In this document: positions 1,672 to 17,200 of the stretch, piece after piece | How positions within the stretch are numbered: position 1 is the first letter of the stretch | Layout: each line of letters begins with the position of its first letter | Source: a virus | Direction: 5' to 3' (one strand) | Virus record (IMG/VR): IMGVR_UViG_3300021492_000046 | Location: 1 to 20,186 of that record | Length of the DNA: 20,186 bases | Position numbers and translations under genes: made by a program | The notes under the pieces: model-generated | Databases searched by the model: none | What the model was told of the DNA's origin: nothing | Seen by the model: the letters and a program-made list of their open reading frames with translations, nothing else

Positions 1672-2165
1672 AGGATACGACCCCGATTCTTGTTAAGAGC
1701 ACAACAAAGCAGAAACTTTCGGAGGCAAAAGAGATCCTTCGAAAGACTTGGGATGACTTCCTTGTTTACCTTCTTGAGTTTTATATTTCCCACGCAGATG
1801 AGGACGACAGGGAGTTAGACAAGGCTGATGTGATGCGCTATTGCATCTCTTCTCCTGACACGAGTTCACTCGAGTTCCATAGAGATCAGCTTACGAAGAT
1901 TCTTACCGATTTAGAACACACGTACGCAACAACCGGCGATCCAAAAGACAAAGCGACAATTGCTGAGAAGATTGCTCGTATTAATGCCTCTCTTAAAGAC
2001 ATTTCAAAAACTGATGAAAGTAGTCGAGTACTTGAAGAGATAGCTCAAATAAAAAAGAACAGATTAAAAATCTTAAAGAATATAGCTCCAACAAAAACTG
2101 TAAAACGAAATGAAGATAAAGAAGAGATATCGGAAACTGAGAGTGAACAAGAAGCAAATAATTAA
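1668..2165 (+). CDS. Small RHH-like/coiled-coil protein, candidate small terminase subunit
   Basis: 165 residues, charged, with no sure family match. Residues about 7-40 read like a ribbon-helix-helix DNA-binding unit: a short strand (I-L-V-K-S-T) followed by T-K-Q-K-L-S-E-A-K and then W-D-D-F-L-V-Y-L-L-E-F-Y. Residues about 60-145 are rich in Leu, Ile, Lys and Glu and look helical to coiled-coil. The last 20 residues are acidic and polar. The start ATG overlaps the upstream TGA. The gene lies directly before the large terminase gene and overlaps its start by up to 56 bases. In tailed viruses this slot usually holds the small terminase subunit, a DNA-binding oligomer that recognises the packaging site. 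That role is inferred from position and the putative DNA-binding start only. Confidence 0.5.
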   Translation: MKDTTPILVKSTTKQKLSEAKEILRKTWDDFLVYLLEFYISHADEDDRELDKADVMRYCISSPDTSSLEFHRDQLTKILTDLEHTYATTGDPKDKATIAEKIARINASLKDISKTDESSRVLEEIAQIKKNRLKILKNIAPTKTVKRNEDKEEISETESEQEANN

Positions 2166-4761
2166 GGTCATTTGTGATTATTGTGGAAAGGAATACGAGG
2201 TCACTGAGCAAGTTTACTATGCTAAGATGCGACAGGGCTTTAGATACTTCTTCTGTTCGGAGCAGTGTTTGGCTCGTGCTCGTGCAGAATACTTATGGAA
2301 CCGTAAAGCGCCAGTTAACATTCCTGATGAGCTTAAAGAAGAGCCTGAAGTTGAAGTATCTCTTATACCGGGGGATATGCAAGGCTTTTGTTACTACTGT
2401 CATCGACGAATCCCAAAGTCAGCAATATTCTGTGAGGAACATGCAACCAAAGAACATCTTGCAATATTTGAAGCAACTCAGGAATTACCAGTTCACCCAA
2501 GAGGTTGGTGGTCCTACGAAATAATTAAGGATTGGCTTTCTGGTTACAAGAAGATTCTTCTAAAAGCTCCGTCTGGAACGGGTAAGAGCGTTCTTGAGGA
2601 CATTATGGCGTATTTGAATTTGACACTTTTTGATAATTCCTTCACTCTCATAGGTTCAATTTCAATGCCAATAGCTGTACAGCACATAGATAGGATTCGT
2701 AGTTGGGTTGCGATGTCACCTTTCAGAAACCTCATAGTGTATGACAGTAAAGAACAGATAAAACTCAAAAACGGCTCAAGAGTCTTAGCAATAGCACAGA
2801 ACGAGAAAACACGAGGTGGTTATCATCCAGATTTGATTCTCTTAGATGAGTTGGCACGAATCCGTCCTTCCTCATATTACGGTTTGTTTTATCAGATGGG
2901 CAAAACGAAAGGAGCGACTGAAATAGGGGTTTCAACTCCGTTCCTCAGCTGCTATGATGATCAAACAGAGGTGCTCACAGAAAATGGATTTAAGTTGTTC
3001 AAAGATGTAGATTTGAACGAAAAAGTTGCTACTATGAATTTGGATACCGAACAGTTAGAATTTCAGTATCCATTAGAAAAGCAAGTATATGATTATGATG
3101 GCTATTTAATCAGTCTAAATACTAAGGGAATAAATTTAAATGTTACGCCCAATCACAGAATATACTACATCGGTCAATGGGCGTTCCGAAACAAGAAAAA
3201 AAGTTATAAATCATGTCGAGCTGATCAGCTCCTTCCCGAGTATTGTATCCATATTCCCAAAGTGCCATTACCAACTGAAGGTAAGGATGTGCCCTATCTA
3301 AGAGTTCAAAAAAATGTTATGGAATTGAGGAATGGACACGGGGCATTTAAGAAAGTCGATAAAGCGTTTGATCTGCCTATGGATTTATGGCTTGAGTTCT
3401 TAGGATACTTTTTAAGCGAAGGTTCTGTCGAGAAAAAGGGAAGAATTAAAATATCCCAGAAAAAATTTAAAGATAGGATGTTCAAGTGTTGTAAACAAAT
3501 AGCTACTTATTTTCACAGAAAGGGAGAAGAGGGGCAAGATTATTTTCGTATTCAGAGTCCTCAATTATATAAGTTGCTGAAAGGGGAAAAACGCATCCCG
3601 GATTATGTGTTTGGTTTGTCCCTAAGACAGCGAAAAATTTTCTTGGACGCGTTTTCGCTTGGTGATGGAAGTCAACAAAGTCGCAAATACAATGAATATA
3701 TGCTTTTTCTGAACTATCCCAAGGAGAAGGCTTTGGGGGACGATTTGCAACGACTGCTTATTACTATGGGCATACCCACAATTGCTCGTGTGAAAAAAGG
3801 TAATGGGAGTTGTTTAGTGATTTCTGGAAACTCCAAACGGTACGCGGATTTAAGGAAAAGAGAAGAAGGAAAAGATATTTCACGAAAATATTATAAAGGA
3901 AAAGTCTATTGTTGTACTGTTCCTAATCACACTCTGATTGTGAGAAGGAAAGGAAAAGTTTCAATTTCAGGAAACTCAGGACCTTTTCTCAAGCTTTGGT
4001 ATTCAGGGACAGCACGAAATTACGCGGTAAAACTTGAAGACTGTTGGTTTATCACTGAAGAAATGATAAGGGATGCTCAAAAAGACATGTCTCCCTCCTT
4101 TTTTGATCAGGTATTTAAAGCTGAATTTGTAGCAACCTCTAATAGAGTGATTCCAGATGAGCAACTCCTTAACGCTATTACGGATACAAGATCGAAATAT
4201 ACAGGAGAAACAATAATGGGTCTCGACTTTGGACGCAAGCGAGATCATACAGCATTGGTAGTTCTTAATGATAAGGGTCATGTCATATACACCGAAATTT
4301 TGCCTCTCAAGACAACTTGGCGAGAACAATATGCCATAATACGCGATAGAACAAAAAAATTTAATCCCACCACGATATATGCGGATCAGACATCGATTGG
4401 TGATCCCATACTGGAGGAACTTTCGGACCTTCCGATTGAGCCTGTCCTAATGTCTAACGATAAATTAAAAAAGAAGATTATTGACAATTTGGTTTTGTGT
4501 TTTGCTTATAATTCGATTCACATACCTAAAGATGAACAAAAGTTGATTGATCAGCTTTCAGCTTTTGTATATTTAGACGACAACTTAAGTAAGTGTGGTC
4601 CCGAAGGAGGAGCACATGACGACCTTGTGGATGCGTTGGCTCTCGCCTCCTTGGGACTCGAACGACATATTGATGAGGAAGAAAATACGGACAGTTGGGG
4701 AGCGATTGGTGGAGAACAGTCGCTTGATGTGGAGGAAAGTCCTTGGACAATTGTATGGTGA
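2110..4761 (+). CDS. terL: Terminase large subunit with N-terminal zinc fingers, intein-interrupted
   Basis: DNA-packaging motor ATPase and nuclease. The 883-residue precursor would give 541 residues after removal of an intein (residues 281-622). N-terminal zinc fingers: C22, C25, C49, C53 and C94, C97, C108, H111. ATPase: Walker A A-P-S-G-T-G-K-S at 153-160 and Walker B D-L-I-L-L-D-E at 241-247. The coupling motif V-S-T-P is followed three residues later by the intein. RNase H-like nuclease: D706 in G-L-D-F-G, D759 in Y-A-D-Q, and D837/D838/D841 in A-H-D-D-L-V-D. ATG 2110 gives a 56-base overlap with the upstream gene. GTG 2143 is an alternative that keeps both zinc fingers and shortens the overlap. 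The tandem N-terminal zinc fingers are not part of the usual core terminase. Family call is very firm. Confidence 0.96.
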   Translation: MKIKKRYRKLRVNKKQIIKVICDYCGKEYEVTEQVYYAKMRQGFRYFFCSEQCLARARAEYLWNRKAPVNIPDELKEEPEVEVSLIPGDMQGFCYYCHRRIPKSAIFCEEHATKEHLAIFEATQELPVHPRGWWSYEIIKDWLSGYKKILLKAPSGTGKSVLEDIMAYLNLTLFDNSFTLIGSISMPIAVQHIDRIRSWVAMSPFRNLIVYDSKEQIKLKNGSRVLAIAQNEKTRGGYHPDLILLDELARIRPSSYYGLFYQMGKTKGATEIGVSTPFLSCYDDQTEVLTENGFKLFKDVDLNEKVATMNLDTEQLEFQYPLEKQVYDYDGYLISLNTKGINLNVTPNHRIYYIGQWAFRNKKKSYKSCRADQLLPEYCIHIPKVPLPTEGKDVPYLRVQKNVMELRNGHGAFKKVDKAFDLPMDLWLEFLGYFLSEGSVEKKGRIKISQKKFKDRMFKCCKQIATYFHRKGEEGQDYFRIQSPQLYKLLKGEKRIPDYVFGLSLRQRKIFLDAFSLGDGSQQSRKYNEYMLFLNYPKEKALGDDLQRLLITMGIPTIARVKKGNGSCLVISGNSKRYADLRKREEGKDISRKYYKGKVYCCTVPNHTLIVRRKGKVSISGNSGPFLKLWYSGTARNYAVKLEDCWFITEEMIRDAQKDMSPSFFDQVFKAEFVATSNRVIPDEQLLNAITDTRSKYTGETIMGLDFGRKRDHTALVVLNDKGHVIYTEILPLKTTWREQYAIIRDRTKKFNPTTIYADQTSIGDPILEELSDLPIEPVLMSNDKLKKKIIDNLVLCFAYNSIHIPKDEQKLIDQLSAFVYLDDNLSKCGPEGGAHDDLVDALALASLGLERHIDEEENTDSWGAIGGEQSLDVEESPWTIVW
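2950..3975 (+). other. Intein with LAGLIDADG endonuclease domain, in terminase
   Basis: An in-frame 342-residue protein-splicing element (residues 281-622 of the precursor). It starts at C281 after F-L-S and ends at G621-N622 before S623. Block A is C-Y-D-D-Q-T-E-V-L-T-E-N-G-F. The block B T-x-x-H is T-P-N-H. The end reads V-S-I-S-G-N, then Ser as the +1 nucleophile. Two LAGLIDADG-type helices are present: L-G-Y-F-L-S-E-G (431-438) and L-D-A-F-S-L-G-D-G (512-520), both with acidic residues, so the homing endonuclease could be active. The residue before the terminal Asn is Gly instead of the usual His, a known tolerated variant. The joined host sequence would be S-T-P-F-L-S/S-G-P-F-L, right beside the ATPase coupling motif. 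Confidence 0.95.
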
Positions 4762-5755
4762 TCGGGATACAGATCCTTGGAAAGTAGGTGCTCCGAGTGG
4801 TGAAGACGAAAGTGATGAGTCTTCCAGAACTTTTAAGACTACACACGCGTTAGAGGTGGGTGGACCATCTCAAGAAGACTGGGAATTATATTTGACAAGT
4901 CCTCCCGCATTTGCAGCAGTTGAAGCTGTCACCTTTGCTGTTCTTTCTGCTGGTTTTGAAATTCATGGTGAGAGTGAGCAAATTAGGGAAAGATATACAC
5001 GGCGCTTTGATAAAGTATTTCCAAAGCTTTATTCTGTTATGCGAGACGCTTTAGTGTTTGGCGACAGTTATTCGAGGATCCTCTTCGGGAGGGACAACCA
5101 TTTTACTGATATTGAAGTTTTATTTCCGCTCAATGTAGTAACTCAGAATGGTAATTACTTTGTGCGAGAAGGCGGGAAGCTTGTCCGTGTAAAGAATATT
5201 TGGCACTTTCAAGCTATGGCTCGTACGGACTCATCTTTTGGCATATCTATGATAGGTGTAGCAAGACAACCTCTTAAATGGAAGAAGGAAATTGACGAGA
5301 GTGTCCACGAGGGTATTATCAGACACGGTTTTGCGAAATATCATATTCAATGCCTTCCTGACAGACGAGGACTTTATCCCGATGAAAATAAACTCAAAGA
5401 ATTAGAGAGACAATTTAGAAAGATTCACGTTGGTCACGAGTTTGTTTCGACAGACAAGGTTAAAATTGATCCAATTGACACTTCTGGATTTCCAGCTCTC
5501 TTAGACTATCTGCAATATTACACAAGTCTCGCTGCAACCGGCTTAATGGTTCCGGCTGAGACACTTGGGCAGGGTATAGCAACTTCACAATATGCAACTG
5601 CTAAGGTAAGGATGGAATTCTTCCTCAAGAATACTATTCCTTATTTCCAAAGAGTCCTTGAATGTTCTGTTAATGATAATCTCATGGGAGAACGAGCTGA
5701 GGGAGCTATATTTAAATTAAATGAACCAAAAGAGATCTCATATAAGACAGGATGA
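4727..5755 (+). CDS. Portal protein
   Basis: About 342 residues from ATG 4727. The frame is open further upstream, but those codons lie over the terminase nuclease domain. ATG 4727 has GGTGGAG about 12 bases upstream and leaves a 35-base overlap with the terminase. The protein has the layout of tailed-virus portals: an acidic N-terminal tail, an S-P-P-A-F-A-A-V-E-A helix, a 'D.L.FGDSY.RI' segment (D-A-L-V-F-G-D-S-Y-S-R-I), an M-A-R-T-D-S-S-F-G-I-S region, and a C-terminal Q-Y-A-T-A-K-V helix. The portal forms the dodecameric ring at one capsid vertex through which the terminase pumps DNA. Its place between terminase and prohead protease is the standard order. At 342 residues it is on the short side for the family. 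Confidence 0.85.
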   Translation: MWRKVLGQLYGDRDTDPWKVGAPSGEDESDESSRTFKTTHALEVGGPSQEDWELYLTSPPAFAAVEAVTFAVLSAGFEIHGESEQIRERYTRRFDKVFPKLYSVMRDALVFGDSYSRILFGRDNHFTDIEVLFPLNVVTQNGNYFVREGGKLVRVKNIWHFQAMARTDSSFGISMIGVARQPLKWKKEIDESVHEGIIRHGFAKYHIQCLPDRRGLYPDENKLKELERQFRKIHVGHEFVSTDKVKIDPIDTSGFPALLDYLQYYTSLAATGLMVPAETLGQGIATSQYATAKVRMEFFLKNTIPYFQRVLECSVNDNLMGERAEGAIFKLNEPKEISYKTG

Positions 5756-6183
5756 TTCACGATACATATTTTCCTTTAGGACGAGAGAAGAAGGACATAT
5801 TTCACGATAGGATTTTAGTAGAGAGTGGGGATATGTTATATGACTCCACATCCCAAGGTGTTCCTATCTTCATTCCCCCTAATGTTCTGAAAAATGCTCG
5901 TATTCCTAAAAAGTTACCATTTCAGATTTTTCACAATGGAAAGGAAGTTGGGGAGGTTAAGAATATTCGATGGGATGGTAGAGCACTTAGAGGAGATATT
6001 CATGTTTATCCCCAACATAATGAGGAGGTAGTTAGAGAGCTTTTGAGGGGAAATCATGGTTTGTCTGTGCGCTTCTCTTCTATTGATGAGGATTATAAAA
6101 CCTATACATTGATTAAAGACTTGACGTTGGAGCATTTAGCTCTTGTTCCAGCTCCAGCGTCACCATCTGCAAGAATAGTGTAA
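5752..6183 (+). CDS. Prohead (capsid maturation) serine protease, compact form
   Basis: 143 residues starting with an ATGA overlap on the portal stop. The pattern fits HK97-type prohead proteases: H61 in I-F-H-N-G-K-E-V-G-E-V occupies the place of the family's 'HD....G.V' catalytic His, and S105 in H-G-L-S-V-R-F that of the 'G.S.GF' catalytic Ser. The end, T-L-E-H-L-A-L-V-P-A-P-A-S-P-S-A, matches the family's 'L.EVSLVPVPANP.A'. These enzymes cut scaffold and capsid N-termini inside the assembled prohead and then themselves. It is shorter than most relatives (often near 200 residues), with almost no sequence after the core. I see no separate scaffold gene before the capsid gene. Confidence 0.8.
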   Translation: MIHDTYFPLGREKKDIFHDRILVESGDMLYDSTSQGVPIFIPPNVLKNARIPKKLPFQIFHNGKEVGEVKNIRWDGRALRGDIHVYPQHNEEVVRELLRGNHGLSVRFSSIDEDYKTYTLIKDLTLEHLALVPAPASPSARIV

Positions 6184-6200
6184 AATTCTACGAAAGAGTT

Positions 6201-6206
6201 AAGGAG
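6201..6206 (+). promoter_or_regulatory. Strong ribosome binding site of the capsid gene
   Basis: AAGGAG lies seven bases before ATG 6214, inside a purine-rich leader. It is the best Shine-Dalgarno match in the window, as expected for the most abundant virion protein. The 30 bases between protease stop and capsid start hold nothing else I can recognise. Confidence 0.8.
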
Positions 6207-6213
6207 AAAAGAA

Positions 6214-7068
6214 ATGGGTGAATTAGCTGATAGGTTAAAAGAATATGTCGCTAAGGTGCAGTCACACGAACTCAGCGCGTCTGAGGACTTACGACGACTG
6301 ACACAGAAAGCCTACTATAACGCTGTCATAGCTGGAGCTAAACGAAGAGAATTCATGAGGAAGATACTACCTGTTGTTAAAACAGGTTCACATAGAGTGA
6401 GGGTGTTTACATCTGACGCAAATGGATATGCTTCAAAGGGAGCTTATAAAGGAGAACCTCCTGTTTTTCATCCCAAATACACAAGTATTGATGCTGTTAC
6501 CGAAAAAGCTTGGACTCTACCACTCGCTCCTAAAGAGTTAGTTGAAGATGCGGAGTTTGATCTAATAGAGAACGAAGTTTCTTTGGCTGGTATGCGATTA
6601 GAAAATACATTAAATCAGGATGCTATTTCCACGTTGATAGACAATGCTGAGCATAGCACGACATGTAATGGTGGTGATCCATTATCAAGTGTAGGGGATG
6701 CTTTTGCTTATGTTGCAGATTCTCAATTCTCACCGACTCACATGATTGCGACTCCCAAATTTCTTGTTTATGTACTTGAACAATTACAGACCCCATTTAT
6801 GAGTAACAAGAAACAGGGTGGTTTTCTTGATATATCTTTTCTATCGGTCACTTCAAATGGGGATAAGAATTGGGGATGGACAAATGCCGGGGATGTCGGA
6901 GCAGTAGTCTTAGATGCTGAAATGGCAGCGTTAATTCTTATGAAGGAGGATATAACCGTGAAGAAGTATTCTGATCCTCTTAATGATTTACGTGGTGCAA
7001 TAGTAGAAATGAAATACAAAGTTGTAGTAAGAAAACCTAAAGCTATTTGTATAATTAAACATGATTAG
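6214..7068 (+). CDS. Major capsid protein, HK97-fold type
   Basis: 284 residues, in the normal place after the prohead protease. The first 45 or so residues are charged and helical (a possible delta-like scaffold or N-arm). These are followed by a strand-rich core with features of HK97-type capsids: an early R-K-I-L-P-V-V segment with R-V-R-V-F, an E-K-A-W-T-L-P-L-A-P-K-E-L-V-E-D stretch equivalent to the 'K.A....S.ELLEDS' region before the spine helix, then a spine-helix-like segment (N-E-V-S-L-A-G-M-R-L-E-N). The C-terminal A-domain-like part contains G-D-V-G-A-V-V-L-D and ends in the basic strand M-K-Y-K-V-V-V-R-K-P-K-A. The fold is inferred from pattern and context; no cross-linking residues can be assigned. 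It is on the small side for the family. Confidence 0.85.
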   Translation: MGELADRLKEYVAKVQSHELSASEDLRRLTQKAYYNAVIAGAKRREFMRKILPVVKTGSHRVRVFTSDANGYASKGAYKGEPPVFHPKYTSIDAVTEKAWTLPLAPKELVEDAEFDLIENEVSLAGMRLENTLNQDAISTLIDNAEHSTTCNGGDPLSSVGDAFAYVADSQFSPTHMIATPKFLVYVLEQLQTPFMSNKKQGGFLDISFLSVTSNGDKNWGWTNAGDVGAVVLDAEMAALILMKEDITVKKYSDPLNDLRGAIVEMKYKVVVRKPKAICIIKHD

Positions 7069-7077
7069 GAGAAGAAA

Positions 7078-7755
7078 ATGCGAGCGATTGCTCTTTTAGT
7101 GACTCTTTTAGTGTTGTGTCTCGTTCCGCTTTCTCAAGCAGCCCTTTCCAGTGTGGTTACGCTTAATGCCACGGACGCGTCAGGGATTGATCATGAGTTG
7201 TATTACATTGATTTCAGAGAAGACTTGGATGAAGGGGTAATTTATAACTCACAGAGTACTGCTGATCGTGGAACCGTTTTATTCAAACAAGAGGCTATGA
7301 GTGCTGGAAATACTATGATGGTAGCCACAAATTATACCTATTTTGAAGGAAGTGCTTTAATATCAGGTGCATCTTTAGTAGAGAATATGGGTGGAGTCAA
7401 TGCTCACAATGCCAATTACACATTAGGTGTGGTAGGTCTAAAGGGAACTTCCACTTCCAAATTAGCTGTGGCTTCTGCTTCGAGTGTCTCTCCCTACGAT
7501 GTGCAGTATCAGTACAGCGTTTCGGGAGCAAATGGAGGCGCAGGGATTGGTGCTGCTGAGGTGAGTAATACAGGTAAGACCTATGCAAAAACAACAATAA
7601 GAGGTGCAAAACAATTTTCATTGTCTGGTGAGTTGAGTTGGTCAGTACCAAAACCTGCTGGAGGAATGGAAGTGCCAAGTACGGACATATCACATTTGTG
7701 TGTATGGGCTCAGGAGAGTCCTGCCTATCCCATCTTTCCAGGAATAGGAGCGTGA
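7078..7755 (+). CDS. Signal-peptide-bearing protein of unknown function, next to the capsid gene
   Basis: 225 residues. The first 21 form a textbook signal peptide: M-R start, a run of Leu/Val/Ala, then P-L-S-Q-A followed by A-L-S-S, with likely cleavage after A21. The rest is rich in Ser, Ala, Gly, Asn and Thr with alternating polar and hydrophobic residues, suggesting a beta-rich fold. It holds several N-x-T sequons (N-A-T, N-Y-T twice). No further membrane segment or catalytic motif is visible. AGGAG at 7067-7071 overlaps the capsid stop codon and sets the start. Its place after the capsid gene would normally suggest a decoration or head-completion protein, but a cleavable signal peptide is odd for a protein assembled in the cytoplasm. 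It may instead be a secreted or surface protein. Confidence 0.65.
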   Translation: MRAIALLVTLLVLCLVPLSQAALSSVVTLNATDASGIDHELYYIDFREDLDEGVIYNSQSTADRGTVLFKQEAMSAGNTMMVATNYTYFEGSALISGASLVENMGGVNAHNANYTLGVVGLKGTSTSKLAVASASSVSPYDVQYQYSVSGANGGAGIGAAEVSNTGKTYAKTTIRGAKQFSLSGELSWSVPKPAGGMEVPSTDISHLCVWAQESPAYPIFPGIGA

Positions 7756-7756
7756 A

Positions 7757-8752
7757 ATGAAAACTCCTCTTTCCTCTATTTTTAATTTTGGAGCGATCCC
7801 CTCTCCTTGGGATAAAAGAGACGTTATATATGCGGCTCTTACTTCAAAGGAAAAGCCAGAGGTATTTAGTCTTAAGGAATACCAAGGACCGGTAGTAGAC
7901 CAAGGTCCTCGACAGATATGCGTTCCTTGTGCGTTGTGTGCAATTGTAGAGTCAAAACAATTTTACAATACTAATTTGTCTGAATGTTACATTTACAAGC
8001 GTCGTTCCCATAAGGGAGATGGCATGGTGCTGAGGAACGCTCTCAAAATTATGCAAAAGGAAGGCACTTGTCAAGAAATGTGTTTTCCGTTGTCTACGTG
8101 TCAAGAACGATGCAGTGAAAGCTCAATTAAAAAGAACGCCCTATCTTATAGGATAGGAGAATACCATAGAGTATTCAATGATATTACCGGTACGATGTAT
8201 ATTCATAAGCTACCAGTATTTGCAGCCGTTCCTGTGTATGATAATTGGTCTTATGATGCTCGTATACCAATGCCCTCTGGTGAATTCTTAGGTTTTCACG
8301 CTATTACGATTGTAGGATATAACCTCACAGAGAAATATTATGAATTCAAAAATTCCTGGGGAACAGAATGGGGGAATGGGGGATACGGGGTGTTGCCTTT
8401 AAACTATCCGATAGCTGAAGCATGGATAGTTGAGCCGAGACTTGGGAATGATTACGATGATTTGCTTCCTGATGACATAACAATTAAAAATACAATATGT
8501 GGCATGTCCATATTTGGGCTTGGTATCGAACTCGAGATTACTGTTCCTTGGGACTGTATTGTAAGACCCAACTTTGGAATATTTCGATTTCCACGTACGC
8601 TTCATAAAGGCACGAATTCAGTGATGTTTAGAGTTCCATTTAAGAAAGGTTCACAACCACTAAGTTTAACCTTTAAGCATAAGAATTCTTATATTAGAAT
8701 GTCTGCTACTCTTTCTAATACCATTCAATTGAGTGAGTGGGAAAGAATTTAA
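7757..8752 (+). CDS. Papain-like (C1-type) cysteine protease
   Basis: 331 residues with all four papain-family active-site elements in order: Q49 (oxyanion hole) in V-V-D-Q-G-P, C55 six residues later (the papain Gln-to-Cys spacing), H181 in G-F-H-A-I-T-I-V-G-Y, and N199 in F-K-N-S-W-G-T-E-W-G-N-G-G-Y-G. Residues 1-40 are not a full propeptide. There is no signal peptide, unlike the gene before it. Cysteines at 55, 58 and about 61, and several near residues 110-120, may form disulfides or a metal site. Residues about 235-331 form a separate beta-rich tail of unknown type. The start is one base after the preceding stop, with AGGAG just before it. It is distinct from the prohead protease. A virion-carried or host-directed protease is possible; the substrate is unknown. 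Confidence 0.88.
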   Translation: MKTPLSSIFNFGAIPSPWDKRDVIYAALTSKEKPEVFSLKEYQGPVVDQGPRQICVPCALCAIVESKQFYNTNLSECYIYKRRSHKGDGMVLRNALKIMQKEGTCQEMCFPLSTCQERCSESSIKKNALSYRIGEYHRVFNDITGTMYIHKLPVFAAVPVYDNWSYDARIPMPSGEFLGFHAITIVGYNLTEKYYEFKNSWGTEWGNGGYGVLPLNYPIAEAWIVEPRLGNDYDDLLPDDITIKNTICGMSIFGLGIELEITVPWDCIVRPNFGIFRFPRTLHKGTNSVMFRVPFKKGSQPLSLTFKHKNSYIRMSATLSNTIQLSEWERI

Positions 8753-8758
8753 ATTAGA

Positions 8759-11700
8759 ATGAGCTTGCGAGTAACATTTCTCGGAGTAAATGCAGAAGCA
8801 AAGGGACATTCCTGTATATTGATTGAGTCTCCTAAAGCGAAAGTTCTTTTAGAGCCCACCCAGCGAGTTAAGGATGTCGATGCTGTTATAATCGCGGATA
8901 TAGACAAAGATGAATATAGCGAATGGAAATATTATGCAGACCAAGGTGTTCCGATATATTCGGTAGCAGCAATAAAGAGATGGGCAGAAGATAACAAGCT
9001 TCGTGAGCACATTCAAGTGATAAGCAACAAGTTCTCAATTAAGGGTCTTCACATGAATTGGCTAACGGCTAATGTTGCTCCTCATGAACCAGCAGGTGGA
9101 GTTAGAATTCCAAGTTATGATGTGGATATAGTGCCTGAACTTCCACCTTATATTCCTCAAGCTTTAATAAAGGCATTCGGATTGCCACCGTCTCATATCA
9201 TTGTTGGTATTGGCTCTTATAAGAAGTCTGATCATAAAATATCATTTGAGGATTTTCTTCTTCAACTTGAGAAAACCAGAAGTGGTAAGGAGAAAGGTCT
9301 TTTGTCCATTACTCTTACAAACTTCAGGAAGGATCTGAAGGAGCATAAAAGTGAAATTCTCAGAAGACTCAAAGAGAAATGGGACGTTCCTATCTTTTGG
9401 GCAGAGAAGGGAATGATTCTTGAGTTCTCACGAAGTGGTCAAGTGGAGAGAATTGACTCTTCAAATGAAATTGAAAAGCTTCATCTCAAAGAATTTCTGT
9501 CCAAAGGAGTTGATTATGACATAAAGCACGTTAAGACAAGGTGGAAAGAGTGTATAGCGGATTTGCGGTATTTGGCTAATAACGCCGTACCTCGCTTGAA
9601 AGCAGGAAAGAAATGGGGTGAATGGACTCTTGACGCGTGCTATAAATATTTTGCCGCTTTGATAGACGCTCTTCGTAGTGTGCATTTTACGCTTGTTCCT
9701 CCTACTCAACCTGAGCTATACAAAATAGAGCATCCCAATAAAGATCCTAAGGAAGCACTTAAGACTTCTTTCTGGCAGACATATTTAAAAGCTAAGAAAT
9801 ACATGAAGTCCAAACCTCCCAAAGACGAGGAGGAATTAAAAGAGTGGAATAAGAAGCGAACGAAAATAATAAGTACGTCTGAAGAAATGAAGAGCCTTAA
9901 AGTCGGATACCTCTCCAAGGCTAAACCATATTTACGATTCTTCCTTCCTACCATTCACGAAGATATTGCGAGTGCTGGATGGGATGAAAAGAAGCTCCTT
10001 ATTGATGTTAAAGCCGATGGTCTGAGGATCACTCTCTGGAAGTCAAGGGGTAAAGGATACGTGTTTGTAGATCCCGAAGAATTGAAACACAAGTCCCCAC
10101 TAATAAACAAATATGTTCCTCAGATAGTGAAAGAAATTGAGGAGCACTTCCCCGATAATACAGCTCTTGATGGGGAACTTTATGCGGCGAGAGGTAATAA
10201 AGCTCTACACAGAACTGTCATAAATGGAATTATAAATACTAAGCTTCCTCCTGAAAGATTCATACCTTATACTTACGCCTTTGCTTTTGACGTCCTTATA
10301 TACAAAGGTAAGGATGTGCGTGATAATCCTCTTGAGGAGAGATTAAAGTTGCTTCGTGCCTTTAAATCCACGTCTCATATCAAAATAGAAAAGGTATCTA
10401 ATGTGGTTGTTCCCGGCTACTCTGGATATGTGGTTAGCGGAAACAATAAGAGTGCGATAGACAAAGCCATTCGCTTGATAGAGACATCAAAGCATAATTT
10501 ACATGAAGGTGTGCAAGAAGGTATAATGGTCAAAACTTTAGATCATCCATACGAAGTTCCGACTAATAAAGGATGGTGTCTAAAGGGTGGCTCTTACATC
10601 CTAACTCCTGATGGGTTCATGAGTATAAATCAACTCAAGTCGGGAATGCAGGTCTTATCATCAGACGGAAAGTTCCATTGCATCAAAAATGTATTCAAGA
10701 GAAAAATAACAGATCGTGATGTAATAGTAGAAATAAATAATCATTATTCACCAAAAGTAAGACTTACAGCGGATCACGAGATCCTTACCAACAGGGGATG
10801 GTCTAAGGCAGAGGAAGTAAAGTCACTCTATTCTCCAATTCTTAATGTTGATATTTTGGAAAATCCCCCAGCAAAGATTGAGCTCGAAATGTATGGATAC
10901 AAAAAGACTATAATTCCAGATGAAAGATTTTATAAATTGATTGGCTTTATTCTCGCTGAAGGTTCTTTGGTGAATGCTTCAAATGAAATCGAAAAGTCTC
11001 TTAGTCACTCTTCTAAATGGTCTGGAATACGAATCTCTAATAATGAAGATATGACTTGGGCAATCGAGATTATCCGAGATATTTTGCATGTGCAACCACA
11101 CAGCTATACGTATGATGGTAAACGCATAGTGGAATTCAAAGATCCTCCATTCGCTCGATGGTTCTATGATACATTTGTATTCAAGCATGGCAGAGAACAC
11201 TATAAACATAAGATACGCTGGAAAACTTTGAGTATTCGACTTCCTTTGTGGTTTGCTAAGATTACAGAGGAACAATGGCGTTCTTTTTTAGAAGGCTATT
11301 GGCTTGGTGATGGAGCAAAAGAGAGAAAATATAGAATCGGAACGTCTTCTTCGTATATGGCTGGCACTCTTTATTTGATTGCTAAACTTCGTGGTTGGGA
11401 CGCAACCGTAAATTGGAAAAAGACATCAAGAGAGCCCTCGTTTCTGATTTATATTTCAAAAACTCCTATTTTTAGATCACTCAAGCCTTCTATCCGAAAG
11501 ATTCCCGTCACTTCTTTTCATAGAGAAAGTGACTACCTTTACGATTTAGAAATCGAAGGGGAAGAATCCTATTCTAACGGAGAAATTGTGTTTCATAACT
11601 CGAAATGTAAGCTATGGCATGAAGTTGATACTGTGGTATTAGATAAAAAGTTGGTAAAAGGACAAACTGATGTGTGGAATTATTATTTAGGTATCGAAAT

Positions 11701-12193
11701 ACCAGCCGGATATGCTAAGATGATGCTTGACGACACTCAGGCGTATAAACGTGTTCGATGTTTGTATAATGGTCATCTTTATAAGAAGAAAGAGTGTCAA
11801 GATTATTTAGACAGACGAGGTGCTCGATTCTTTATGGAATACGGAAAGTCGGATAACACAAAAATTAAGTGTGATGTTGGAGACGTTCTCAGAGTGTCCT
11901 CCGAAGAAGTCCTCTATAATGCAAATGAAACCCATCCAGAATATCCGTATTATACAGGATACATAAATAGGGCGATGGAACCAGTACCAGAAAGAAAGAC
12001 TTCTGATAATTTAGTCGTGTTGCACCGTCTTGCGTTACTTGAGCCTCAGCGAATACCACTGGAGGTTTTAGCGAAGTGGAAAGAAAATATGCCTCCAGAA
12101 ATTAAGAAGTATTGTGAATATATTAGGTCTTTGTCCACCCCGAAACTAATTCAATTTTATAATGCACTGAAGAAGGTTCAAAATGAAGAGTGA
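8759..12193 (+). CDS. ATP-dependent DNA ligase with degenerate metallo-beta-lactamase-like domain, intein-interrupted
   Basis: 1144-residue precursor, 803 after intein removal (607-947). Residues 1-235 follow a metallo-beta-lactamase chain: a V-T-F-L-G opening, a strand I-I-A-D-I-D-K-D-E where H-x-H-x-D-H is expected (here D47, D49, D51, E52), and L-T-N (N188) where L-T-H is expected. A helical region spans about 240-400. The ligase core has the nucleophile motif K418-A-D-G-L-R423, D471-G-E-L, F510-D-V-L, E587-G-I-M-V-K592, and after splicing W606/S-K-C-K (motif V). A C-terminal OB-like region follows. It would seal DNA nicks or breaks through a lysyl-AMP intermediate. The Shine-Dalgarno is weak. 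It overlaps the next gene, a phosphoesterase-like protein, by 11 bases. Ligase call firm; MBL call good from pattern. Confidence 0.93.
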   Translation: MSLRVTFLGVNAEAKGHSCILIESPKAKVLLEPTQRVKDVDAVIIADIDKDEYSEWKYYADQGVPIYSVAAIKRWAEDNKLREHIQVISNKFSIKGLHMNWLTANVAPHEPAGGVRIPSYDVDIVPELPPYIPQALIKAFGLPPSHIIVGIGSYKKSDHKISFEDFLLQLEKTRSGKEKGLLSITLTNFRKDLKEHKSEILRRLKEKWDVPIFWAEKGMILEFSRSGQVERIDSSNEIEKLHLKEFLSKGVDYDIKHVKTRWKECIADLRYLANNAVPRLKAGKKWGEWTLDACYKYFAALIDALRSVHFTLVPPTQPELYKIEHPNKDPKEALKTSFWQTYLKAKKYMKSKPPKDEEELKEWNKKRTKIISTSEEMKSLKVGYLSKAKPYLRFFLPTIHEDIASAGWDEKKLLIDVKADGLRITLWKSRGKGYVFVDPEELKHKSPLINKYVPQIVKEIEEHFPDNTALDGELYAARGNKALHRTVINGIINTKLPPERFIPYTYAFAFDVLIYKGKDVRDNPLEERLKLLRAFKSTSHIKIEKVSNVVVPGYSGYVVSGNNKSAIDKAIRLIETSKHNLHEGVQEGIMVKTLDHPYEVPTNKGWCLKGGSYILTPDGFMSINQLKSGMQVLSSDGKFHCIKNVFKRKITDRDVIVEINNHYSPKVRLTADHEILTNRGWSKAEEVKSLYSPILNVDILENPPAKIELEMYGYKKTIIPDERFYKLIGFILAEGSLVNASNEIEKSLSHSSKWSGIRISNNEDMTWAIEIIRDILHVQPHSYTYDGKRIVEFKDPPFARWFYDTFVFKHGREHYKHKIRWKTLSIRLPLWFAKITEEQWRSFLEGYWLGDGAKERKYRIGTSSSYMAGTLYLIAKLRGWDATVNWKKTSREPSFLIYISKTPIFRSLKPSIRKIPVTSFHRESDYLYDLEIEGEESYSNGEIVFHNSKCKLWHEVDTVVLDKKLVKGQTDVWNYYLGIEIPAGYAKMMLDDTQAYKRVRCLYNGHLYKKKECQDYLDRRGARFFMEYGKSDNTKIKCDVGDVLRVSSEEVLYNANETHPEYPYYTGYINRAMEPVPERKTSDNLVVLHRLALLEPQRIPLEVLAKWKENMPPEIKKYCEYIRSLSTPKLIQFYNALKKVQNEE
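10577..11599 (+). other. Intein with LAGLIDADG endonuclease domain, in DNA ligase
   Basis: A 341-residue in-frame intein (precursor residues 607-947). It begins C607 (C-L-K-G-G-S-Y-I-L-T-P-D-G-F) right after W606 and ends V-F-H946-N947 before S948. Block B is T-A-D-H-E-I-L-T-N-R-G-W. The penultimate His and terminal Asn are canonical. LAGLIDADG helices are L-I-G-F-I-L-A-E-G (727-735) and L-E-G-Y-W-L-G-D-G (844-852), with the acidic catalytic positions kept, so homing activity is plausible. The insertion point splits ligase motif V (W-S-K-C-K after joining), so the ligase cannot be complete until splicing happens. Confidence 0.95.
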
Positions 12194-14228
12194 ACTCACA
12201 AACACTCAGAATGTGAATACTCTACTCGAATTGGTAGAGTCGGAGCTCAATTATAGACACGCGAAAGGATTGCACATTCCAAATAGAGGAATGTATCTAC
12301 CCTCACCACACGCTAAGCTTATCCATGATGGTCACAAGACAGTAATTCTCAAGGATAGGAAATTTAAAATAGTAGGCGTTCCATTCCTTTACTGTGACAA
12401 TAAATATGCTTATGGTGTATTAGAACTTAAAGAAGCAAAAGAAATTAAGATAGAAGGGCAATTTAAGGCTCTCCAGAAATATCATAGAGTAACCAAGAAA
12501 GAGTTTGAAAATTGGAATTGGTCATTTCCCCTTTACGCTTATTATATTAAAGAGGTTCACAATTTTAAGAAGCCTGTAAAGATTAACCTTCCTCAAGGCG
12601 TGCAAAACTTTATTAAGAATCCAGTTCAATATTTGGAAGATAGCGAGTATCCATTTACCGGTAAGCATGAATTATCTCTTCCTTTACAAATAAATTGTCC
12701 TAACTGTGGAAGGTGGATATATGTTCCACATTCTCCAATTCCGTCTGATTGTCCTTATTGTGGTTATCAATTGAGAGGAGTGGAAGAAGAAAAATCACGG
12801 ATGGTTCCTCTTCCAAAAGAAGAATACTCTCGAATAGTTAAGGATTATCCTCTTAAACCTTTACCTAAGAAATATTATAAGGATCAAAGAGGAGGAGTGG
12901 CTTGGTGCTTTGCTTCTCCTCGAACAAAAATCCTCACGGAAGGTGGATGGAAACCTTGGAATAAGATTTATCCGGGCGAGAAAGTCCTGACTCATAAGGG
13001 TAGGTTCATGCGAGTCACACGAAAAGATGTGTTTGAAGGCATTTATGACTGGATTAAGGTTCACCTTCAGTTTGATAACATAAAGGACCTCAAATATGAT
13101 ATTCGAGTAACCGAAAATCATCCCTTCCTCACGACCGAGGGTTGGAAGGAGGCAAAAGACTTAAAGGTTGGCGACAAGATTGTTTCAAAAACACCCAAGC
13201 GTTGTCTTAATTGTCGGGCTCCGATTCCACTCTCATGGAATGCAAAAACAGACTTTATGTTCTGTAGTGATGAATGTGCACGAAACTATGAGTGGACAGA
13301 AGAGAGTTTGCACACTGAGTACATTGATAAACAAATTTATGATAATCCTCTTGCTGATGTCACGGTTACAGTTGTAAAAATAGAAGGGATTAAGATTCCA
13401 AAGAACTCTACCGTATGGACACAAACTCATGCTTGTTCTTTAGAGGTAGAGGAAGACCATTCTTATATGACTCCTTTGGGATTCTCTCACAATTCACAAT
13501 GGCACATAAGAGGCATAAAACCAGAAGATAAGGAAGCGTTTGATAAAGGTGAAATATCCTTCGAGGAAATGATTTTACGTCACAGTCTTCATCAAGACTT
13601 GAGATGGAAATTAAACGGCGTTTCAGTCCTTCCTCAGTGCACAATTACCGAAAGTGATGTGAAGTCCTATGTGAGAGGAATGCTTGGGCAACTTAATCCA
13701 GAACAGAAAGGTCCTGCTAATGTTCAAAAAGTTAAGGTTATTCCCAAAGTAGAGGTCGCTAAACCTACAATGCCTAAGTCTAAAATAAAAGAATTCTTAA
13801 TAGACAAGGAAGGGGCTAAGCTCATTAATAAGATAATAATTCACGAAACTTCTTATTGGATTAGTCCTGGAGAAATAGGATCGCTTCCGTACACTTGGGC
13901 TTATATGGGAACTGTATGGACGGGGAAAGTAGAGACTGGCGTTGAGAGATTTGACATGCATGAGCTTTTCTTTTATCCAGATAAGGATTTGCCTGAGCCA
14001 AATAAAAAATTCTTTGATGGGCGATTCATACTAAGAGCCTTTAGAGGTGAAGCAGCACGAGGGGGCAAAACATGGTGGTTGTGGAAGTCCACTAAAAATC
14101 CTTATCCACAAAACCCTTGGTGTTATTGTGACCAAGGTGAACACGAAGTTCTTCCTCTTGATAAGATAAAGCATTGGGGACATGAAGATTATCCTGAATG
14201 GAAGACAAGAAAGGACGAATGTGAATAA
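12183..14228 (+). CDS. ASCH-like / zinc ribbon / LigD-type phosphoesterase-like protein, intein-interrupted
   Basis: 681-residue precursor, 485 after removal of a mini-intein (242-437). Residues about 30-135 resemble an ASCH/PUA-like domain: S-P-H-A-K-L-I-H-D-G-H-K-T, then Y-G-V-L-E-L-K-E-A-K-E-I, then Y-A-Y-Y-I-K-E-V. A zinc ribbon follows (C172, C175, C190, C193). The spliced part then reads W/S-Q-W-H441-I-R-G, a charged loop, and R-H467-S-L-H470-Q-D472-L-R474. This resembles the H...LHYDLR core of the LigD 3'-phosphoesterase, which trims 3' ends to a ligatable hydroxyl. The later part has S-P-G-E-I-G-S and a W-W-L-W-K-S-T strand. The start overlaps the ligase stop by 11 bases, suggesting coupled translation. 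The phosphoesterase assignment rests on motif pattern and neighbour; a purely DNA-binding role is possible. Confidence 0.7.
   Translation: MKSELTNTQNVNTLLELVESELNYRHAKGLHIPNRGMYLPSPHAKLIHDGHKTVILKDRKFKIVGVPFLYCDNKYAYGVLELKEAKEIKIEGQFKALQKYHRVTKKEFENWNWSFPLYAYYIKEVHNFKKPVKINLPQGVQNFIKNPVQYLEDSEYPFTGKHELSLPLQINCPNCGRWIYVPHSPIPSDCPYCGYQLRGVEEEKSRMVPLPKEEYSRIVKDYPLKPLPKKYYKDQRGGVAWCFASPRTKILTEGGWKPWNKIYPGEKVLTHKGRFMRVTRKDVFEGIYDWIKVHLQFDNIKDLKYDIRVTENHPFLTTEGWKEAKDLKVGDKIVSKTPKRCLNCRAPIPLSWNAKTDFMFCSDECARNYEWTEESLHTEYIDKQIYDNPLADVTVTVVKIEGIKIPKNSTVWTQTHACSLEVEEDHSYMTPLGFSHNSQWHIRGIKPEDKEAFDKGEISFEEMILRHSLHQDLRWKLNGVSVLPQCTITESDVKSYVRGMLGQLNPEQKGPANVQKVKVIPKVEVAKPTMPKSKIKEFLIDKEGAKLINKIIIHETSYWISPGEIGSLPYTWAYMGTVWTGKVETGVERFDMHELFFYPDKDLPEPNKKFFDGRFILRAFRGEAARGGKTWWLWKSTKNPYPQNPWCYCDQGEHEVLPLDKIKHWGHEDYPEWKTRKDECE
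12906..13493 (+). other. Mini-intein carrying a four-cysteine zinc-finger insert
   Basis: A 196-residue in-frame intein (precursor residues 242-437) from C242 (C-F-A-S-P-R-T-K-I-L-T-E-G-G-W), after A-W, to H436-N437 before S438. Block B is T-E-N-H-P-F-L-T-T-E-G-W. The C-terminal block is A-C-S-L-E-V-E-E-D-H-S-Y-M-T-P-L-G-F-S-H-N. No LAGLIDADG motif is present. In the usual endonuclease position lies a short insert with C341-x2-C344-x16-C361-x3-C365, a zinc-finger pattern ending F-C-S-D-E-C. Whether that is the remnant of a different nuclease type or a stand-alone DNA-binding insert cannot be told here. Confidence 0.92.
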
Positions 14229-14259: not shown

Positions 14260-17200
14260 ATGGGTTGGTTATCCGGTTATGAATATAGGAAGAAAGTAAC
14301 CATTTCCGGTTCGAGTGGAGCCGGAGAAAATTATCAAGTTAAGCTAAGAATTGGTTCATCCTCTGGTGGGGATTTCCACTTGGAAGGACATTGCATAGAT
14401 TTTCCGAATGATATTCGCTTTACAGATGATGATGGTGAAACTCTTTTAGACTACTGGATAGAAGACTCTACTCAAGATCCAATTACGGTTTGGGTGAAAG
14501 TCAAAGATAATCTGGATAACAACGTGGATATTTACTGTTACTACGGCAAAAGTGGTGAGAGTTCTGCAAGTGATGGCAGTGCTACTTTTGAATTTTTCGA
14601 TGATACAGAACAAACAGTAGGAGAAGGTGTTGTAATTACAAGCTGGAGCTTCAATGCAATTGGATACGTGATAGAATGGAAAGCAGAGACTCCATCCTCA
14701 GACGGGTTTGCTGCTTATCTTACGGATGCTAATGGTGATGTCAATGGTGCTAATTTTTACGTTGACGATGGCGGAGACGGTAAAGTTAAAGAATATGATG
14801 GATCTTTTCACACGATAGCAGATAGCTTCACTGAACCTGTGATTTTAGTCACTAAATTGATAAGCACTTCCACTTTAGATTATCAAGTTTATAATCCTGA
14901 CAGAACTTTGGCTGGAGAAATAACAGGAGCAAATTACAGAGGTTCTCCAACCAGAATTGACACCCTTTGGACGGGTTCTTCAAGTAGTAAAAATTGGCAA
15001 ACTCACTTTCATTGGCTATTCATACGCAAATACGCTTCTCCAGAGCCCTCTTTCAGTAACGTAGGAAGTGAGGAGATAGAGCACCTAACTTGTATAGATG
15101 TGGTTAGATCATCGGATACGGCTTTTGGTGGCGGACCCATACAAGGGAGCTGTACTGACATTTTGGACTTCATATCTTTATCGTCTCGTTATTCCCCTTG
15201 GCTTCTGGGATTTGCTTATAGAAGAGCAATTAAGATTTCAGGTTCGAGCGGAGCTGGCACGGGTTATCAAGTTAAACTGAAAATCGGTTCTTCTTCTGGA
15301 GGAGATTTTCATTTGAATGGGCATTGTGATAATTTTCCAAACGATATTCGTTTCACAAAAAATGACGGACTCTCCCTTTTAGACTACTGGATAGAAGATC
15401 CTTCGCAGGATCCTATCACAGTATGGATAAAGATTGAAGACAATTTAAACGAAGATGTAAACATATTTTGCTATTACGGAAGCTCTCTCGCTGAGTCCGA
15501 GAGTGATGGTAATGCCATATTCGAGTTTTTTGAGGACTTTGAGGGTGGAGATGTAGAATACGTTGCTACTCCAAGTAACAAAACCACTGATGGATTTTGG
15601 CATGCTGCACCAAAAGTCACAATAGCCGATAATGGTGATTGGGTGATGTGCTATAACAATGGAGGAGAAACAAACGACACAGAAGTAGGAATCGGGATTA
15701 GCACTGATAACGGAGAGACATGGACAAATAAAGGCTTAATATCAAATAATCCCAATTATTTCTGTGGTCAACCTTTAGTCATAAAATATCCTAATGGTAA
15801 ATTACAGTGTTTTTGGAATCTTCGTGATACTACAAAAGATTATAATACACCAGAAGCTTGGGGAGGCACTGAAGTTAGTACATCAACAGATAATGGTCAA
15901 ACTTGGTCTTCGCCGGAACATGCTCATCCTACTTTGGATGATGATAATATAGTGGCTTGGCAAGCAGTGACGATAGGCAATACTGTTTATTTATCTGCAA
16001 CTGCACATGTTGGAGACCCCATAGTCTTTAAAAATGTGCTTTACAAAACTGAAGATAATGGTGAAACATGGACTAAAGTGAGTGATATTACACCAAGCGG
16101 GTACACAGAAGGCGGGATGGTGCATTTAGGAAATGGAGAATTTGTGGTAGTTAATAGGGATTTTGATAAACAACATACGCTCCAGAGGCGGAGTACCGAT
16201 TATGGCGAGACATGGACAACAGACGGCTACATTAAGACAGACGGTTCATTAGGCTCGTCTCCCGGAGGCAGTGATTTAATTTTGCATCAAGCGAGGATAT
16301 ACAATTTGGGTGATTATATCATAATGTACGCTGCTCGGTATCCCGGTTCTTATCCTCGTGATGTTATGCTATATTTCAGCACAGACGATTGTGCTTCTTG
16401 GAAAGCTGGTGCATCTGAGATTTATCATGGAATAAGTGGTACAGAGGGCGATTACGTTCCTCTTTCTCTGAGTGAGGGAAAGCTTTTAGCTGGTTATGAC
16501 AGGCGATGTGATATTAGTATAGAAAGTGTACTTTCTTTATCTGGTTGGACAGTTACTAATGAGAATGTAGGTGAGTTAAAAGGAGTGAGTTCTCTGGTTA
16601 AACACGGTAATTATGCGGCAAGATGGTATTGCAAAGCTACGGGAGAGGCATACGCGTATAAAACAATACCCGAACTGCGTGATCAAGATAAGATTATTGA
16701 GTTCTGGAGGCGGGGAGGGGGTTATTCGGGAGAAGATGTAACATCTTCAGTGATTGGATTAGATAAAAGTTCAGATATCTACAACGGGATAAAGCTATAT
16801 TACAACGCTGAAACACATGAATTTCAATATTACGATGATGCTTTTCATACCATATTATCAGGGGTAGATGATTCAGTGTGGTACAAGTTTGGAGTTAAGG
16901 TGTTTAGTGATGGTGATGACAGTAAATTTGATCTTTGGATAGACGATGAGAAGAAGGTAACTGGAGGTGGAACGAGAGGAAGTATTAATTCAGTTGTATT
17001 ATTCCAGTTTCAACACAAGACATCAAAGAATGGTTGGGTAAAAGAATATGTGGATGCAATTCGCGTTCGCAAATATGTCGAGCCAGAACCGTCATTTAGT
17101 AGTGCTCAAGATGAAGAAGGACCTGTGTTTACCTGTGGAGACACGCTTGCAAATTCTTCATTATCTGCTATTCAAAGAGAAGTCTTTCCAGTGTGTTCCG

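Follow-up and report, generated by a model that had tools for sequence, protein, structure and literature searches.

Why should three genes within about 10.5 kb of one viral DNA each be interrupted by an intein, and do the three inteins act together? The stretch analyzed here (the window) comprises 20,186 bases, which is the length of the virus record IMGVR_UViG_3300021492_000046. A preliminary description proposed that its inteins keep a terminase, a ligase and a phosphoesterase-like protein inactive until splicing and so impose a shared post-translational delay. Judged from the sequences, the insertions very probably reflect serial invasion by independent selfish inteins, which have reached different points in the intein life cycle, and not a timing device.

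Gene block and intein borders

The virus is known from environmental DNA only and is proposed to be tailed and of the HK97 type. In its block of structural and DNA-processing genes the terminase gene TerL is followed by the portal gene, an open reading frame without profile match, the capsid gene, an open reading frame with weak PHROG matches and nothing else, a papain-like protease gene, the ligase gene, the third intein-containing gene and the gene of a long repeat protein. The matches of the portal (PF04860, E 1.6e-8) and the capsid protein (PF05065, E 0.0017) are below the cut-offs. The protease gene (7757–8752; PF00112, E 6e-13) lies within the structural block. The capsid gene (6501–7000) has 66–80% identity and is more divergent than its neighbors in the relatives compared.

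The reading frames are open throughout all three inserts, and each insert is a complete in-frame intein, as first described. Cys at position 1 (codon TGC or TGT), block A, T-x-x-H (TPNH, TADH and TENH), a terminal Asn (AAC or AAT) and Ser at position +1 (TCA or TCG), by which class 1 inteins are recognized, are present in all three. The penultimate residue is His in the ligase intein and in the mini-intein of the third gene, and Gly in the TerL intein. The same Gly-Asn end is found in 59 of the 62 related viral inteins listed (130 matches, of which 80 loci were kept and 18 partial or repeated loci then left out). The division into two LAGLIDADG inteins and one intein without this endonuclease is also borne out: the TerL and ligase inteins each contain two LAGLIDADG motifs with an acidic residue, the third intein none.

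The ligase insert matches PF14890 (Intein_splicing, E 6.3e-5), TIGR01445 (E 0.0027) and Hint_2, with scores below the cut-offs. The insert of the third gene matches PF07591 (PT-HINT, E 3.5e-6) and, below the cut-off, PF14890 (E 4.5e-5). The PT-HINT match is the only one that passes its curated cut-off (27.8 versus 27.7 bits). No HINT match was found in Pfam for the TerL insert, and its LAGLIDADG endonuclease gives a weak match only (PF14528, E 0.0047). In PHROG this insert is matched by profiles of unrelated proteins, named thymidylate synthase and ribonucleotide reductase (E 2.2e-10 and 2.1e-8). The inserts are beyond chance because of these profile matches and, for TerL and the ligase, because relatives lack the inserts exactly at the codon borders. 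With its catalytic residues intact, each of the three inteins is expected to excise itself and to join its flanks.

Distribution of the inteins in relatives

Relatives were collected by scans of IMG/VR and then compared by tblastn, using exteins and inteins separately as queries. All figures are counts of contigs, since fragments of one sample may share one genome. The TerL intein is present in three of 12 contigs (the window, L009 and L010) and missing from nine. The ligase intein is found in the window alone and is lacking in seven of eight contigs. The mini-intein is present in all seven contigs that cover its site (the window, L002, L005, L006, L007, L008 and contig 3300021498_000022). A search for relatives without the inteins, proposed in the preliminary description, was thus successful in IMG/VR, with codon-exact empty alleles of TerL in nine contigs and of the ligase in seven. 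The sole homolog found without the mini-intein is that of L059, which has a similar gene block without any of these inteins; its third protein is 43% identical. The inserts would be ordinary domains if close homologs retained them as such. No homologs of this kind were found, and the codon-exact empty alleles together with L059 rule this reading out.

A fourth intein (344 aa, LAGLIDADG) interrupts the third gene at SPGEVG|SLPYTW (the bar marks the insertion point) in two of seven contigs; the window and four others are without it. The two copies, at 14109–15140 in L008 and at 1793–2824 in L147 (contig 3300021498_000022), are 87% identical.

Library profiles are insensitive to these inteins. 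TIGR01445 matched five of 12 records and PF14890 one of 12, and both missed the inteins in the TerL genes of L009 and L010. Because known inteins were missed, reading frames were scanned with the inteins of the window instead. In frames of at least 100 codons from three long contigs and other relatives, leaving out L059 and contig 3300021498_000022, no intein site beyond the known ones was found. PF14890 does not match the L059 record, which is a weak negative given that this profile misses known inteins.

The TerL intein

The TerL precursor gene (2110–4761, + strand) encodes 883 aa, which would yield an extein of 541 aa once spliced. The TerL genes of intein-less relatives have 541 codons, equal to this extein. 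Both the identification as a terminase (PHROG, E 2.3e-23; PF17289, E 2.3e-5) and the placing of the insertion in the coupling motif (STPFLS|SG) hold. The intein (2950–3975, + strand; 342 aa) contains the LAGLIDADG pair FLGYFLSEGS and FLDAFSLGDGS. L066 has two TerL inteins (2057–3067 and 3218–4228). One of these is at the site occupied in the window and is 57% identical, and the other is inserted 50 extein residues upstream of the shared site. In the distant TerL of L131 an intein occupies the corresponding position, following STP, and the frame begins with an intein-like stretch. The TerL intein of the window also aligns with phage records, one being the Gordonia phage GMA6 terminase (28.5%). 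The GMA6 intein was rejected as a same-site counterpart, being related yet inserted elsewhere. The N-terminal part of TerL (2110–2310) resembles a Cys4 finger, with YHS, TRASH and zf-FCS matches that are all below the cut-offs.

Conversion of genes after endonuclease cutting leaves traces in the sequences that flank an intein. At TerL a co-conversion tract would span positions 2661–4030 (+ strand), with its 5' breakpoint somewhere in 2646–2676 and its 3' breakpoint in 4011–4044. Outside this tract the TerL extein is 96–97% identical to the intein-less L006, L007 and L011 and 86% identical to the intein-bearing L009. Inside the tract the flanks are 96% identical to L009 and 82% identical to the intein-less relatives. 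The intein itself differs from that of L009 by three synonymous and no nonsynonymous changes over 342 codons.

A site was taken as informative where the intein-less L006, L007 and L011 agree with one another and L009 has a different base. Inside the tract 47 of 49 such sites are L009-like (43 of 45 on the 5' side and 4 of 4 on the 3' side). Outside it 147 of 154 agree with the intein-less relatives, six are L009-like and one is neither. This splits into 71 of 73 on the 5' side and 76 of 81 on the 3' side, where the remainder consists of four L009-like sites and one that is neither. Fisher's test gives 1e-36, a value that describes the contrast only, neighboring sites being non-independent. The L009-like flanks amount to ~310–370 bases in total, about 275–300 at the 5' end and 36–68 at the 3' end. 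Both breakpoints lie within stretches without informative sites, 29 and 32 bases long. Unless the assembly is chimeric, the tract would be the trace of homing with co-conversion.

The ligase intein

The second host gene is an ATP-dependent DNA ligase, as first described (precursor gene 8759–12193, + strand; PF01068, E 4.1e-12), and PF01068 is also matched by seven of seven ligase relatives. In the window the match stops at residue 606, the last residue ahead of the intein, and the chain resumes with SKCKLW. The insertion point W|SKCK is confirmed, and the resumed stretch fits motif V. The intein (10577–11599, + strand; 341 aa, site KGW|SKCK) contains the LAGLIDADG pair LIGFILAEGS and FLEGYWLGDGA, the second of which was read by eye as the script pattern had missed it. 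A second copy of this intein was sought and not found.

The nearest relative, L033, is 94–98% identical at 10050–10540, 70% at 10540–10577, in the 37 bases that precede the intein, and 95–100% at 11600–11900. The +1 residue is Ser in the window, Ala in six of seven relatives and Ser in L003. In L004, L006 and L007 the Trp preceding the site is replaced by Ala too. This pattern fits a short converted tract at the ligase intein, the donor of which would lie outside the relatives found. At another intein site, conversion of the +1 residue was needed, according to the available part of that report (PMC10643990).

The long N-terminal region of the ligase (8759–9900) shows a weak metallo-beta-lactamase-type match in one of seven relatives (PF13483, E 0.077).

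The third gene and its mini-intein

The precursor of the third gene (12183–14228, + strand) has an extein of 485 aa with weak zinc-ribbon matches only. Its motifs QWHIRG and HSLHQDLRW recall LigD phosphoesterase. A catalytic family was found neither in Pfam and NCBIfam nor in the PDB, and the LigD 3'-phosphoesterase profiles TIGR02777 and PF13298 match none of five records each (positive controls: matches in three and one of 14 genomes, respectively). The identification as a phosphoesterase is therefore not confirmed. An AlphaFold model of the third protein of L059 is too poor for use (pLDDT 45.7). In L033 the third gene has a one-base frameshift near 8253–8256, close to residue 189, which is either real or an assembly error.

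The mini-intein (12906–13493, + strand) comprises 196 aa without a LAGLIDADG motif. Its dN/dS is 0.029–0.044 at a dS of 0.47–0.82 (six pairs among the window, L032, L006 and L007), and that of the flanking exteins is 0.022–0.116. These values were calculated with our own Nei-Gojobori script; the dS of the intein against L008 is saturated. They mark the mini-intein as old and inherited along with its gene.

Residues 100–124 of the mini-intein (13203–13277, + strand) form a treble-clef-like Cys4 insert, C-x2-C-x16-C-x3-C. The four Cys residues are invariant across six aligned copies. Profile searches with the hand-cut stretch gave weak treble-clef matches, with all Pfam scores below the cut-offs (VATC, E 5e-4, and DUF2116, E 3e-4, in L008; DUF2116, E 0.004, in the window). 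A PHROG named HNH endonuclease matches weakly as well (E 8e-4 and 0.015). The insert may be what is left of an endonuclease, or it may have been acquired later. The pattern C-x2-C...(F/Y)CS-x2-C is present in none of 16 weaker mini-intein relatives (L041–L056). A structure model of the mini-intein is poor (pLDDT 58), and its best Foldseek matches are inteins, with TM-scores of only ~0.15–0.35. A literature search found no report that joins an intein with a treble clef.

Origin of the three inteins

Independent invasion would proceed as follows. Mobility is probable for the inteins of TerL and the ligase: when relatives co-infect, the LAGLIDADG endonucleases would cleave their intein-less alleles, and repair would copy the intein in. 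The TerL intein would be a recent arrival from an L009-like relative that brought 5' and 3' flanking sequence with it. The mini-intein would be an older element, devoid of a LAGLIDADG endonuclease and passed down with its gene. It may have been retained because imprecise loss would break the third gene, although its fixation in all seven contigs could also reflect a useful role. A joint regulatory role would be unneeded.

That the three inteins jointly delay packaging, ligation and the third activity until they are spliced is hardly credible. That the precursors are inactive before splicing is in itself plausible. The three inteins do share a gene block, each interrupts a conserved motif, and conditional splicing has been reported for other inteins (PMC10663303, available in part). 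However, two of the three are optional in relatives, as the counts for TerL and the ligase show, and this leaves the shared delay unsupported. Furthermore, the inteins are only distantly alike (19% identity between those of the ligase and TerL) and nothing in them points to a common switch. The mosaic pattern at the inteins of TerL and the ligase might also stem from chimeric assembly of co-occurring strains. The window does derive from a metagenome assembly, and the TerL breakpoints fall in stretches devoid of informative sites. Such a chimera is nonetheless unlikely, as it would need two joins just enclosing the intein, and the tract departs in places from L009 (flanks of 96% identity, two contrary sites and three differences in the intein). 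The inteins and the empty alleles hold in either case, chimera or conversion.

A narrower regulatory reading concerns the mini-intein alone. In place of the endonuclease, its treble-clef-like insert would sense zinc, redox state or nucleic acid and gate the splicing of the third protein. Besides the fixation of the mini-intein and its invariant Cys residues, this reading draws on the conservation of the insert between the window and L008: segment 94–135 is identical at 33 of 42 residues, the two ends at 33 of 60 and 26 of 46. However, the block-B segment is conserved too (27 of 33), L059 manages without the intein, and the treble-clef matches are weak. Purifying selection by itself does not show regulation, since every intein whose host gene is needed has to remain able to splice. 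Domestication of the mini-intein is thus quite improbable. If true, an uncultured virus would possess a splice switch in the form of a domesticated intein, next to two neighbors that are still selfish. Serial invasion by selfish inteins remains the preferred explanation, and the mini-intein with its zinc-finger-like insert offers a test case for new use following endonuclease loss.

Comparison with known systems

Much of this is already in print, as excerpts of earlier reports indicate: a ligase intein, phages that carry three inteins each, and insertion into the coupling motif of TerL. TerL inteins of mycobacteriophages are described in the ATPase domain at functional motifs. Several of these inteins were seen to splice, and two of them cleaved the partner allele that lacks the intein (PMC5050341, in part). 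Among them TerL6-f is inserted at the putative coupling (C) motif, like the TerL intein of the window; the hosts differ, and the likeness is one of motif. According to part of another report, Cluster J mycobacteriophages likewise comprise intein-bearing and intein-less TerL with exteins that are 97–98% identical, but their terminase intein lies near residue 104 and is described as HNH type (PMC3706429).

Pectobacterium phage CB7 has the same combination of two LAGLIDADG inteins and one without endonuclease, but its interrupted genes encode a helicase and, in two cases, ribonucleotide reductase (PMC7344957, in part). In the excerpt on Delta and Zeta crAss-like phages there are up to three inteins per genome and one TerL with two, but also many introns and recoded stops, unlike the window (PMC7886860). 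An ATP-dependent DNA ligase of haloarchaea contains an intein as well, in a cellular gene (PMC4071816, in part). The intein of a cyanophage deaminase was shown to excise itself (PMC6293099, in part). With three inteins in 10.5 kb, the window may be more densely occupied than these cited cases.

The locus is ordinary in kind, yet the contigs of this uncultured virus group show the turnover of inteins with unusual clarity. Within a single gene block there are alleles without an intein, a probable recent arrival together with its conversion tract, an insertion confined to one contig, where the +1 residue has changed, and an old, fixed mini-intein. This suggests that a virus can become dense in inteins when relatives co-infect and homing recurs, with no regulatory purpose involved.

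Possible host and further features of the window

No tRNA genes were found in the window or in 13 pieces of long contigs. The relative L002 is identical letter for letter to the GenBank contig QMVG01000010.1 (also listed as L062). This contig is filed under the 'Candidatus Micrarchaeota' genome bin B47_Guay15, which is either a hint to the host or a binning error. Guay in the bin name is read as Guaymas Basin. Any habitat or host assigned to the window is putative. In the parts of the literature available on Guaymas Basin viruses with inteins and on archaeal viruses, nothing on this virus group was found. The long protein at the end of the block (14260–18399) has an internal repeat. Positions 15501–17000 are without a DNA match in the relatives compared, and the protein may therefore be a variable adhesin, this function being a guess.
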